Positions 9,221 to 13,614 of a stretch of 40,641 nucleotides of DNA are shown here, in pieces. The notes under the pieces were generated by a model. That model searched no databases. It was given only the letters and a program-made list of their open reading frames with translations, and was not told where the DNA came from. The stretch is from a bacterium. GTDB taxonomy: Bacteria > RBG-13-66-14. The DNA is taken from contig DATKYS010000048.1 in assembly GCA_035528375.1 (NCBI GenBank), positions 1-40,641 on the forward strand, written 5' to 3'. The translations under genes and the position numbers were made by a program. Position 1 is the stretch's first letter. The number at the start of each line of letters is the position of its first letter.

Positions 9221-9973
9221 GTGAAAAACCTCGTCGCCGGGAACTGGAAAATGCACCTCTCGCCGGGGGAGGTTGCCGGGTACGCCGGGCGGTTGGTGCC
9301 CCGAACGGCGGACCTGGCCGGGACGGTGGACCTCCTCGTCTGCCCGAGCTACCCCGCGCTGCCCGCGGCGGTGGCGGCCTTCAGGGGCACGCACGTTGCG
9401 GTGGGCGCGCAGAACATGCACCAGGAGTTATCCGGGGCCTTCACCGGCGAGGTATCGGGTGCTATGCTCGTTGACCTCGGCGTCGGGTGGGTGATTCTGG
9501 GCCATTCGGAGCGCCGGCACGTCTACGGCGAGACCGACGCCCTGGTCCTGGCAAAGCTCGAGCGGGCCCACGAGCTGGGCCTGCGACCGATAGTCTGCGT
9601 GGGCGAGCTCCTGGAGGAGCGCGACCGGGGTGAGACCGAGGCGGTGCTGCGGAGGCAGTTTTCCCAAAGCCTGGCCGGGGCGGGACCGGAGCTCGCGGGG
9701 AAAACCGCCCTAGCCTACGAGCCGGTTTGGGCCATCGGTACGGGCCGGACCGCCACACCGGAGACGGCCCAGGAGGCCCACCAATTTTTGAGGGGGCTGC
9801 TCAAAGAAACGCTCGGCACAGCCGCGGAAGGGGTGAGAATCCTCTACGGCGGATCGGTGAAACCGGAGAACGCCCGTGAGCTCATGGCGCAGACCGACGT
9901 GAACGGTGCACTGGTGGGCGGGGCGAGTCTGGACCCGGAGGCCTTCGCCGCCATCGCCCGCGCCGGCGCGTAG
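9221..9973 (+). CDS. tpiA: Triosephosphate isomerase
   Basis: This 250-residue TIM-barrel enzyme interconverts dihydroxyacetone phosphate and glyceraldehyde 3-phosphate in glycolysis and gluconeogenesis. The substrate Lys is in AGNWKMH, the catalytic His in ILGHSERR, the catalytic Glu in AYEPVWAIGTG with the mobile loop, and the phosphate-binding motif is LYGGSVKPEN. The GTG start at 9221 follows AGGAGCA. The open frame extends far upstream only as a shadow of the aminopeptidase gene. It is the last gene of the operon and is followed by a strong terminator. Unusually, no other glycolytic gene is nearby. Confidence 0.97.
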   Translation: MKNLVAGNWKMHLSPGEVAGYAGRLVPRTADLAGTVDLLVCPSYPALPAAVAAFRGTHVAVGAQNMHQELSGAFTGEVSGAMLVDLGVGWVILGHSERRHVYGETDALVLAKLERAHELGLRPIVCVGELLEERDRGETEAVLRRQFSQSLAGAGPELAGKTALAYEPVWAIGTGRTATPETAQEAHQFLRGLLKETLGTAAEGVRILYGGSVKPENARELMAQTDVNGALVGGASLDPEAFAAIARAGA

Positions 9974-9990
9974 CCGCTTCAGGTCGATAT

Positions 9991-10026
9991 AAAAAGAAGA
10001 CGCCCGGCCGGGCGTCTTTGGTTTTC
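9991..10026. terminator. Bidirectional rho-independent terminator after tpiA
   Basis: The 22-base perfect palindrome AAGACGCCCGG/CCGGGCGTCTT (9997-10018) is flanked by an A-run on the left and a T-rich run on the right. It can end both the rightward tpiA operon and the leftward DNRLRE transcript whose stop is at 10047. Confidence 0.85.
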
Positions 10027-10046
10027 CCTCGTATTGACCGCAAAGA

Positions 10047-10667
10047 TTAGAAGTTGGCCTTGATCTGGCCCCAGGAGGCCTCCACCACCTCGGTGCGGGG
10101 GGAGTAATCTACGCACAGTTTTGGCCGCAGATCGGGATCGGTGGTGTAATCCGAGGAGTACACGATGGGGAACGTGCAGCCGGGTGAGTGAACCAGGGCC
10201 ACCCCGCAGTTCTCCTGTTCGCCGTCCGCCCATAGCTGGACCTGCTCGGTGATGTCGAACACCCACCAGCCGGGCACGCCGTCGCCGACGACGGAGTCCC
10301 ACACCCTCGCCCCGAGCTGGGGACGGTTCCCCCAGATGACGCTCGCCTCTTCCCAGGCGTACTTGATGCGCTGGCAATTGATTGCGGCGCCGTAGGTGCC
10401 CACCTGACCCTCGTAAACCTCGAGGGTCGCCAGCTCGATGGTTATCTCTTCGGCCAGGATATCGCTCAGGTCGAACTCGACCAAGCCCCAGGCCTGCACG
10501 CCTCACCCGCCGACGGGCATCAAGAGGTACGGGTAACCCCCGTGAGGCGTACCACCTTGCAAACTGTCTATCTCGGCATCCTTCCCCTCGGGTCCGGGCT
10601 GGTAAACCTGCGTCTCGGCCAGGGCCAGGGTGAAGAAGAGCAGGACACATAGCACGATTAGCCGCAT
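10047..10667 (-). CDS. Secreted DNRLRE-domain protein with in-frame UGA (copy 1; candidate selenoprotein)
   Basis: Read through a TGA at 10505-10503, this gives one continuous 206-residue protein: a signal peptide (MRLIVLCVLLFFTLALAE), then a complete DNRLRE beta-sandwich. The domain shows VYQPGPEGKDAEID, the UGA at residue 55, WGLVEFDL, LATLEVYE, VIWGNRP, GWWVFDITEQV and YSSDYTTDPDLRPKL, and the protein ends ASWGQIKANF. The part before the UGA carries the signal peptide and first strand, and the part after it the rest of the domain, so neither piece makes sense alone. The paralog at 10838-11473 has a UGA at the same position. The start is the ATG at 10667, with GGGAGG upstream partly inside a CCCTTTT/AAAAGGG hairpin (10677-10692). 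DNRLRE domains are found in secreted or surface proteins. The alternative is two pseudogenes. Confidence 0.7.
10464..10505 (-). promoter_or_regulatory. UGA codon plus SECIS-like hairpin, copy 1
   Basis: Read on the minus strand, the TGA (10505-10503) is followed after 20 nt by GGUCG-AGUU-CGACC (10482-10469). A lower stem GCU/AGC extends it to 10486-10464, separated by a single unpaired U on the 5' side and UG on the 3' side. The apical loop starts about 26 nt after the UGA and has G as its second base. Bacterial selenocysteine insertion elements lie just downstream of UGA, have a G near the start of the apical loop and, in Escherichia coli fdhF, a bulged U. The match in layout is seen; the function is inferred. 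Confidence 0.5.
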
Positions 10668-10837
10668 CTCACACCTCCCTTTTTTAAAAGGGTACAAGCA
10701 ACTAACAGAGGGGCAACCGGTGCGCCGGTGGGTACGTTGAAAAACAGAATCATCACAACGCACGGCAAAAACCCCGCAATACCCGGCGAAGCGAGCTTCT
10801 CGGAAGGTTCCCCTCTACGACCGGAAAACGAGACGAT

Positions 10838-11473
10838 CTAGAAGTTGGCCTTGATCTGGCCCCAGGAGGCGTCCTCGACGGCGGTCTCGGTATACATAAT
10901 GGTCAGCTTGGGGCAGAGCAACGGGTCCACCTGGGAATACTCGGAAGCGCACACCCGCGGGGGCGAGCACCCGCCGCCGGGGTGGGTGATGGAGACGCCG
11001 TAGTTTGGAAAGACGCCATCCAGCCAGTCATTCACCAGAGAGGTGACGTCAAACGACCACCAACCGGTGGAGTAGTCGGTGGTGATGTAACCGTAGGCGC
11101 TGCTCCCCCAGGCCGGTCGGCTGTTCCAGATGACCGTGGCCTCGTCCCAGTCTGCGAGGATGCGGTAGGCGCCGAAGGCCACCCCGACGTCACTTATCAA
11201 GTCTTCGTAAACCTCGAGAGTGGCGCTGTCAACGCTGATGGACCAGCTCATGATTGGGTTCAGGTCGAACTCGACCAAACCGGCGAAGTCGTTGCTTCAC
11301 CCGCCCATGGGCAACAGCACGTAGGGGTAATGCCCGTGGGGGGTGCCGCCCTGTTTGTTGTCAATCTCCGCGTCCTTACCCTCGTCGCCGCCGGGTTGGA
11401 AGACAAGCGTTCCGGCCGTCGCCAGCGAGGCGAAGAACAGAAGACTTACGCATACCACACCTAAGAATTTCAT
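10838..11473 (-). CDS. Secreted DNRLRE-domain protein with in-frame UGA (copy 2; candidate selenoprotein)
   Basis: This is the 211-residue paralog of the neighbouring gene, continuous when the TGA at 11299-11297 (residue 59) is read through. It has a signal peptide (MKFLGVVCVSLLFFASLATAG), VFQPGGDEGKDAEID, the UGA after LLPMGG, then GLVEFDL, SATLEVYE, TVIWNSRP, GWWSFDVTSLV and a C-terminus ASWGQIKANF identical to copy 1. The short segment before the UGA matches copy 1 at 27 of 37 positions by eye, while the long segment after it has diverged much more yet stays open in the same frame. That is unexpected if the part after the UGA were untranslated. The ATG at 11473 has GGAGAA upstream. The stop is TAG at 10838-10840. 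The two genes are separated by 170 bases. Confidence 0.7.
11257..11299 (-). promoter_or_regulatory. UGA codon plus SECIS-like hairpin, copy 2
   Basis: The TGA (11299-11297) is again followed after exactly 20 nt by GGUCG-AGUU-CGACC (11276-11263). Here the lower stem is GGUU/AACC (11281-11278 with 11260-11257), again with one unpaired U on the 5' side and UG on the 3' side. Compared with copy 1, one lower-stem pair changes from C-G to U-A, which keeps pairing although it changes a codon from Ser to Asn. The conserved upper hairpin also encodes the conserved residues LVEFD, so protein constraint could explain that part alone. Confidence 0.5.
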
Positions 11474-11825
11474 GGGTTCTCCTTCCACCTTGGATTTATG
11501 ATAGTTGAACGTCGTAATGCGTCCGATTGAGAGGATAGCAGAGAAGCGACCCACTGACAAGTGGGGTATTCGATTTCTATGAATAAGCCTGGGACACGGG
11601 ACTAACTATAAAAAGGGCGCCCTCCCGGGCACCTATATTACTCCTCCATTGATTTTTTATGTCGCCCTTTATTAAAAAACGCGTCACCGAACGCACCGCC
11701 GCGCCCATGACCGTCGAGCGCCGGATTCACTCCCCATACCAGCTCGATGTCTCAAACCGATAACACGGAAGGTTCGAGTGGTGCGCATCATCCTCATCCG
11801 CCGCGGCGATTTCGTAAACGGGCGT

Positions 11826-12254: not shown

Positions 12255-12337
12255 CCCCGTAGGTCGTATTCGTCATTCCGCAAGAACGACCGCGCCGGAC
12301 CCTGGAAGGCCTTTACCGGTCGTTTCCATCCCCGTAG
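12235..12337. repeat. 28-bp duplication of the thiC 3' end
   Basis: Bases 12310-12337, which encode the last codons of thiC and its stop, recur at 12235-12262 with 25 of 28 positions identical. The second copy still spells YGDENDR-stop in the thiC phase, against YGDGNDR-stop in thiC. In another frame the copy supplies the start codon region of the downstream membrane protein. It looks like a small tandem duplication with 47 bases between the copies. Confidence 0.7.
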
Positions 12338-13614
12338 AGCACGCGGCGCATCCCCTTGATGGCGCACAGCTCGGAACACATGGTGCAGACCGATTCGTCG
12401 GCGGGGCGGCTCATGTCCCGCCACTGCCGGACCAGCTCCGGGTCCAGGGCCAGCTCGTACTGGCGGTGCCAGTCCAGGGCACAGCGGGCGCGGCCCATCT
12501 CGTCGTCGGCCTCCCGCGCCCCGGGGAGTTTTCTGGCGATGTCACCGGCGTGGGCCGCGATCCGGCTGGCGATGACCCCCAGCTTCACGTGCTCGACGCC
12601 GGGCAGGCGGATGTGCTCGGCGGGGGTGACGTAGCAGAGAAAGTCGGCCCCGGCCATGGCGGCGATGGTGCCCCCGATGGCCCCGGTGATGTGGTCGTAG
12701 CCGGGCGCGATGTCGGTCACCAGCGGCCCGAGGACGTAGAAGGGCGCCCCGTCGCAGAGCGACTTTTCCAGCCGGACGTTCTCGGTTATCTGGTCGGCGG
12801 GCACGTGGCCCGGACCCTCGATCATCACCTGCACACCGGCCTCCCGGGCGCGGCGGCCCAGCTCGCCCAGGGTTACGAGCTCCTGCATCTGGGCCCGGTC
12901 GGTGGCGTCGGCCAGGCAGCCCGGCCGCAGCCCGTCGCCCAGGGAAAGGGTCATGTCGTGGCGCCGGGCGATCTCCAGCAGGCGGTCGAACTGCTCGTAG
13001 AGAGGGTTCTCGCGGTCGTTGCGCAGCATCCACTCGGTGAGGATGGCCCCGCCCCGGCTCACCACCCCCGCCACCCGAGGGGCTCGCTGCAAAAGCTCGA
13101 TGGCCGCCCGGGTCACGCCGCAGTGGACGGTGATGAAGTCAACGCCGTCGGAACCGTGGAGCTCGACGGCGTCGAAGAGCTCGTCGGCGGTCATCTCCCA
13201 GATTTCGCGCCCCTCTTCCCCCACCCGGACGGCGGCGTCGTAGATGGGCACCGTGCCGACGGGGACGGGGGTGTTTTCCAGAACCGCCAGTCGGGTGGCG
13301 TGGAGATCACCCCCGGTGGAGAGGTCCATCACCGTGTCGGCGCCGGCCTCCAGCGCGACGCGGAGCTTCTCCAGCTCGAGCGCCGTATCCGGCGAATCCT
13401 TGGAGGTGCCCAGGTTGGCGTTGACCTTGATCCGCAGGCCTTCGCCGACGCCCAGGGCCACGGAGGTCTCCCGGGCTACGTTCTTGAGGACGACCACCGT
13501 CCCCCGGGCGACGCGTTCCCGCAGAATTTCGGGGTCGAGCCGCTCGTCGGCGGCCACCCGCTCCATCTCGGGCGTCACACGTCCCGTCCTCGCCGTTTCC
13601 AACTGCGTCGTCAT
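12313..13614 (-). CDS. thiC: Phosphomethylpyrimidine synthase (ThiC)
   Basis: This 433-residue radical SAM enzyme converts aminoimidazole ribotide to the hydroxymethylpyrimidine phosphate moiety of thiamine. Visible family segments include [37 protein letters not shown] and [18 protein letters not shown]. The C-terminal cluster motif is C410-X2-C413-X3-C417 (CTMCSELC), the spacing of the short form as I recall it, against CX2CX4C in Escherichia coli. The protein is the short form, without the long N-terminal extension of the roughly 630-residue enzymes. The ATG at 13614 has GAGG upstream. I see no thiamine pyrophosphate riboswitch in the 112 bases before it, and no other thi genes nearby. Confidence 0.96.

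Follow-up and report, generated by a model that had tools for sequence, protein, structure and literature searches.

Two tandem genes, here referred to as genes a and b, very likely encode exported selenoproteins whose single internal UGA is read as selenocysteine (Sec) by way of SelB and a SECIS hairpin, although all of the evidence is computational and no protein-level data are available. Selenocysteine had been put forward as the simplest explanation in an earlier sequence-only reading of this DNA, and it is now supported computationally by the Sec machinery of the genome, the conservation of the UGA, a covarying hairpin, and the existence of Cys-containing relatives; each of the refuting conditions set out in that reading was decided in its favor. 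In the proposed mechanism, the hairpin, with its loop 25 nt past the UGA, would recruit SelB with Sec-tRNA(Sec), UGA-59 of gene a and UGA-55 of gene b would be decoded as Sec, and the outcome would be one continuous protein with a signal peptide and a DNRLRE beta-sandwich.

Two tandem DNRLRE genes with an in-frame UGA

The window, that is, the whole stretch of DNA analyzed here (40,641 nucleotides), contains the following features of the two genes and their neighbors.

10838..11473 (-): gene a, signal peptide plus predicted DNRLRE/CBM96-like selenoprotein, 211 aa with U59, stop TAG
10047..10667 (-): gene b, paralogue of gene a in tandem with it, 206 aa with U55, stop TAA
11297..11299 (-): predicted Sec-UGA codon (U59) of gene a
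10503..10505 (-): predicted Sec-UGA codon (U55) of gene b
11411..11473 (-): signal peptide of the gene a product, approximately residues 1 to 21, read from sequence and conserved in homologues
10617..10667 (-): signal peptide of the gene b product, approximately residues 1 to 17, read from sequence and conserved in homologues
10967..10969 (-): partner Cys169 of gene a (GGGC-SPP), co-conserved with Sec
10176..10178 (-): partner Cys164 of gene b (SPGC-TFP), co-conserved with Sec
10841..10870 (-): C-terminal tail ASWGQIKANF of gene a (putative sorting tail)
10050..10079 (-): C-terminal tail ASWGQIKANF of gene b (putative sorting tail)
9221..9973 (+): tpiA (triosephosphate isomerase), convergent neighbor, identified from sequence, with an orthologous neighbor in G011 and G013
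12313..13614 (-): thiC, conserved neighbor on the other side

The gene structure described by the sequence-only reading was recovered in full: each gene consists of a signal peptide and a DNRLRE domain interrupted by a single TGA, which is codon 59 in gene a (PMGG-U) and codon 55 in gene b (PVGG-U). The two copies share 68% identity before the UGA and 45% after it, as expected from the claim that divergence is stronger downstream, and both products indeed close with the identical ASWGQIKANF. Shine-Dalgarno-like sequences lie upstream of both genes (AGGAG for gene a and GGGAGGTG for gene b). In the loci examined, 57 different open reading frames (ORFs) close with a tail of the form S/T-[WFL]-G-x-[IVL]-K-A-x-[FY], including ORFs without a DNRLRE domain, one of which lies beside selC; it occurs at many loci, L106:5701-6351 and L007 among them. 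This is apparently a sorting tail of the lineage that has not been described so far.

The synteny of M18 peptidase, tpiA, and the UGA-containing DNRLRE gene reaches G013. A redox partner was sought among the adjacent conserved genes (M18 peptidase, tpiA, and thiC), and none was found. Between the convergent tpiA and gene b, at approximately 9996 to 10020, there is an inverted repeat of high GC content (GACGCCCGGCCGGGCGTC) and, after it, a T-rich sequence, likely a terminator shared by these two genes.

Selenocysteine machinery and the predicted SECIS hairpin

The source genome is a metagenome-assembled genome (MAG) from uncultured Coatesbacteria of 2.63 Mb in 144 contigs with an estimated completeness of 100%. 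Family searches identified selA, selB, selC (tRNA-Sec), and selD, the set of genes whose absence would have spoken against the selenoprotein proposal. The tRNA-Sec scored 75 bits and has a UCA anticodon, its gene is adjoined by selB, whose product contains the SelB winged-helix domain, and selD carries an in-frame UGA of its own at the known UxxK position. Two MAGs that are incomplete, G009 (75%) and G011 (88%), yielded no tRNA-Sec, although both have selA and a UGA-containing selD. The same two genes are present in G003, a single-contig Coatesbacteria genome, but here the best tRNA-Sec match reached 46.7 bits versus the Rfam cutoff of 47, and G003 perhaps has a divergent tRNA-Sec.

When genomes of the phylum Coatesbacteria (n = 14) were searched with both proteins, eight further copies were found. 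Each of these has a single TGA, and they are distributed over G009 (three copies), G011 (two), and G013, G008, and G012 (one apiece), giving a total of 10 UGA copies in 6 genomes and four genera. A hairpin is predicted downstream of the UGA in all ten of them, with the apical loop AGUU (GGUU in the G012 copy, G012a) starting exactly 25 nt past the UGA. The predicted bSECIS hairpins of the two genes, each with its loop 25 nt past the UGA, are as follows.

11257..11281 (-): gene a, GGUUUGGUCG-AGUU-CGACC(U)GAACC
10464..10486 (-): gene b, GCUUGGUCG-AGUU-CGACC(U)GAGC

The stem has 5 bp and is extended in nine of the ten copies by 4 to 5 pairs below a one-nucleotide 3' bulge. According to the bSECIS model, a loop of 3 to 9 nt, a stem of 4 to 16 bp, a G in the first two loop positions, and a spacing of 16 to 37 nt are expected (PMC13188914), and the hairpins of all ten copies meet these four criteria. 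The energy criterion is a minimum free energy (MFE) of at most -7.5; values ranged from -9.3 to -11.8, except for the shortest hairpin, that of G008a, for which the upper stem alone gave -7.4 and the full 27-nt region folds at -12.8. In an ungapped alignment of the ten copies (alignment A3), pairing at the nine paired positions is retained in 98.8% of cells, and in four of the nine pairs both partners have changed; none of 500 shuffles matched the covariation score or the percentage paired, and pairing fell below 50% when the register was slid by one base.

Since the peptide GLVEFDL could itself encode a stem, coding bias was controlled for by resampling synonymous codons with local usage. The 5-bp upper stem alone is expected in approximately 20% of such resamplings and is thus partly explained by the coding of GLVEFDL, so that only the full hairpin is unexpected. 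Its observed stability was reached in 0.4 to 3% of resamplings per copy (P values of 0.004 to 0.03, which are not to be multiplied because the ten copies are related), and in G012a, the stem itself is expected in 0.2%. In the corresponding segment of 33 non-UGA paralogues, the median P value was 0.51, and a full in-register stem was present in 1/33 compared with 10/10 Sec copies. An Rfam scan of positions 9900 to 11700 returned no significant RNA family (best E value of 0.43). Bacterial SECIS elements are too variable for detection by Rfam, and hence this result is not informative on the presence of a SECIS. The selD gene of the source genome shares with genes a and b an in-frame UGA, there at an established Sec position, but belongs to a known family, and the hairpin downstream differs in loop and spacing; as SelD hairpins have neither the AGUU loop nor the 25-nt spacing, we do not claim a SECIS that is fixed throughout the lineage.

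The hairpin also bears on read-through of the UGA without Sec, by a near-cognate tRNA or a suppressor, which would yield both the full protein and a short exported peptide with GG at its end, in a regulated mixture. Protein-level selection downstream and conservation of the UGA would be seen with such read-through as well; yet it needs no SECIS, whereas every copy has a covarying hairpin with the loop and spacing of one. The presence of a full Sec system in the genome, the use of UGA only and never UAG or UAA, and the co-occurrence of the partner Cys with the UGA likewise count against it, and we give it only a slim chance.

Conservation of the UGA and of the downstream frame

Decoding as Sec also fits the pattern of conservation. 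All ten TGAs fall in one alignment column, in which no copy has TAA or TAG, and approximately 110 other DNRLRE matches have no internal TGA. The recurrence of the same single TGA in the same column in eight more copies excludes chance. In a tree of 43 DNRLRE rows, the ten UGA copies form one clade (95/83), which indicates a single gain of Sec that has persisted through gene duplications, and this gain would have preceded the split of the four sampled genera. The third copy of G009 (copy c) has its UGA in the same column and carries an extra C-terminal domain. At G012:C77:900-5300, at least six DNRLRE genes follow one another in tandem, and one of these contains an internal TAA. No further UGA copies were found outside the phylum (386 genomes searched with hidden Markov models [HMMs], 20 genomes of one other phylum), nor did a pattern-based contig scan reveal any beyond the six MAGs; within the searches made, the distribution of Sec-DNRLRE proteins is so far limited to one family of Coatesbacteria.

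Between orthologues, dN/dS is 0.17 to 0.42 after the UGA and 0.11 to 0.23 before it. Purifying selection downstream is therefore much like that upstream, which bears out the claim that the part past the UGA has not decayed and indicates that it is translated within the same protein. A true stop, whether the duplicates inherited an old nonsense mutation or the gene is split and restarts at an internal start downstream, could draw on the open frames with internal GTG/TTG starts that follow the UGA. It is nevertheless very improbable: besides this selection, the UGA has been kept over four genera and several duplications, and a split would separate strand 3 from strand 4 of what is a single beta-sandwich.

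Genome-wide reassignment of UGA, for example, to Trp or Gly, has nothing in its favor beyond the open frames and is barely conceivable given the approximately 110 DNRLRE matches without an internal TGA. As the sequence-only reading had held, UGA is a normal stop elsewhere: prfB, encoding release factor 2, is present (461 bits), and TGA ends selB itself, an FAD oxidase gene, and other genes of the source genome, which excludes a general reassignment. An assembly or sequencing error, imaginable for a window from a MAG in 144 contigs, can be dismissed, since the same TGA recurs in ten copies from six independent MAGs of different projects.

Domain, partner cysteine, and relation to known systems

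Both gene products match the DNRLRE model NF033679 (5.8e-17 and 3e-21) and CBM96 (PF24517), with profile scores that exceed the curated cutoffs (46.9 and 51.1 bits versus 26; 62.2 and 76.2 versus 34). The AlphaFold2 model is a beta-sandwich (pLDDT of 82.7) that, as a predicted model, meets the criterion of a fold like 8wab/7vbo, and its best PDB match is 8wab, a chondroitin-sulfate-binding CBM (TM scores of 0.64/0.75). Polysaccharide binding is known for only a few members of the DNRLRE/CBM96 family (PMC9971899), and for the products of genes a and b, sugar binding would be no more than an analogy with these, without ligand data. There is also a resemblance of the Sec-DNRLRE profile and model to the TGF-beta prodomain (6.6e-5 to pro-TGF-beta2 by hmmsearch and 7e-6 by Foldseek; P0001/P0002, alignment A2), and the partner-Cys loop aligns with a Cys-rich stretch of the TGF-beta2 prodomain.

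The second Cys (C169 in gene a and C164 in gene b), approximately 110 residues from the Sec in sequence, is present in 9/10 Sec copies, being absent in G012a, and in 0/33 non-Sec paralogues. The suggested comparison of homologues in the Sec column came out in favor of Sec: UGA was found in the eight further copies and Cys in relatives from another phylum, though most close paralogues without a UGA have a deletion there rather than a Cys. The relatives are five homologues with a Cys in the matching glycine-rich loop (SGGCG) and another in the second loop (KCSKFYSKEY); one of them starts at a contig edge and is cut just before the loop Cys. Their alignment requires a one-residue gap in the loop, and the proteins have a third conserved Cys. 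Judged from these sequences, and subject to this gap, the criterion of Cys homologues at the Sec position is met, and the loop Cys and partner Cys represent the Sec/Cys relation expected of selenoproteins. The Cys-DNRLRE family at L144-L148 (genomes G352, G398, G397, G392, and G391) has conserved GGCG, WWRCP, and KCSK cysteines, and the full-length copy L141 of genome G352 has an NYPNPFNP-type C-terminal tail. Within the phylum, the only Cys in the mature part of L034 (G001:C44), a DNRLRE protein of the non-Sec sister clade, coincides with or adjoins the Sec column (WGNC), a possible Cys version.

We infer that the Sec in the glycine-rich loop (GGUG) may pair functionally with Cys164/169 outside the cell, and that the two could act together in the exported protein, be it in redox chemistry as a couple, in a selenenylsulfide bridge, or in binding a soft metal; there are no data on function or on the Sec-Cys distance, and we do not rank these possibilities. 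Whether the gain of one Sec/Cys pair turned a CBM-like beta-sandwich into an extracellular redox or metal-handling selenoprotein family is, in our judgment, evenly balanced.

Decoding by SelB and a SECIS is textbook knowledge; what is very probably new is the family and, for Sec, the CBM-like fold and the exported location. The sequence-only reading knew of no Sec in a DNRLRE domain, and this still holds: the catalogue of prokaryotic selenoprotein families dated May 2026 (119 families; PMC13188914) has no DNRLRE/CBM96 entry, and NCBIfam contains only the generic DNRLRE domain, no selenoprotein-specific model being matched. In the literature searched, no paper joins Coatesbacteria with selenocysteine; as far as titles and abstracts tell, none of the DNRLRE papers found there is evidently about selenoproteins, and those found on carbohydrate-binding modules are genome or enzyme surveys only. 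Automatic annotation truncates Sec genes at the UGA, and such genes are hence likely split or missing in databases.

The work adds a very probable selenoprotein family, in a candidate phylum, with a fold and place in which Sec was undescribed. Finding Sec in what is presumed to be a binding module poses the question of whether it serves catalysis, an Se-S bridge, or metal binding at the cell surface, and the covarying hairpin in ten copies is a clean natural data set for the rules of bacterial SECIS elements. With described DNRLRE/CBM96 proteins (NF033679, PF24517; PDB 8wab, 7vbo), the products of genes a and b share the domain matches (3e-21 and 1.8e-13), the superposition of the model on 8wab, and an exported, often tandem occurrence; no described member has Sec, whereas genes a and b add a glycine-rich Sec loop and a new Cys. 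Although they are not thioredoxin-like and lack a UxxC/CxxU motif, they have in common with the bacterial SelB/bSECIS selenoproteins (119 families, PMC13188914) the machinery, the UGA, a bSECIS-type hairpin, Cys homologues, and a second conserved Cys.
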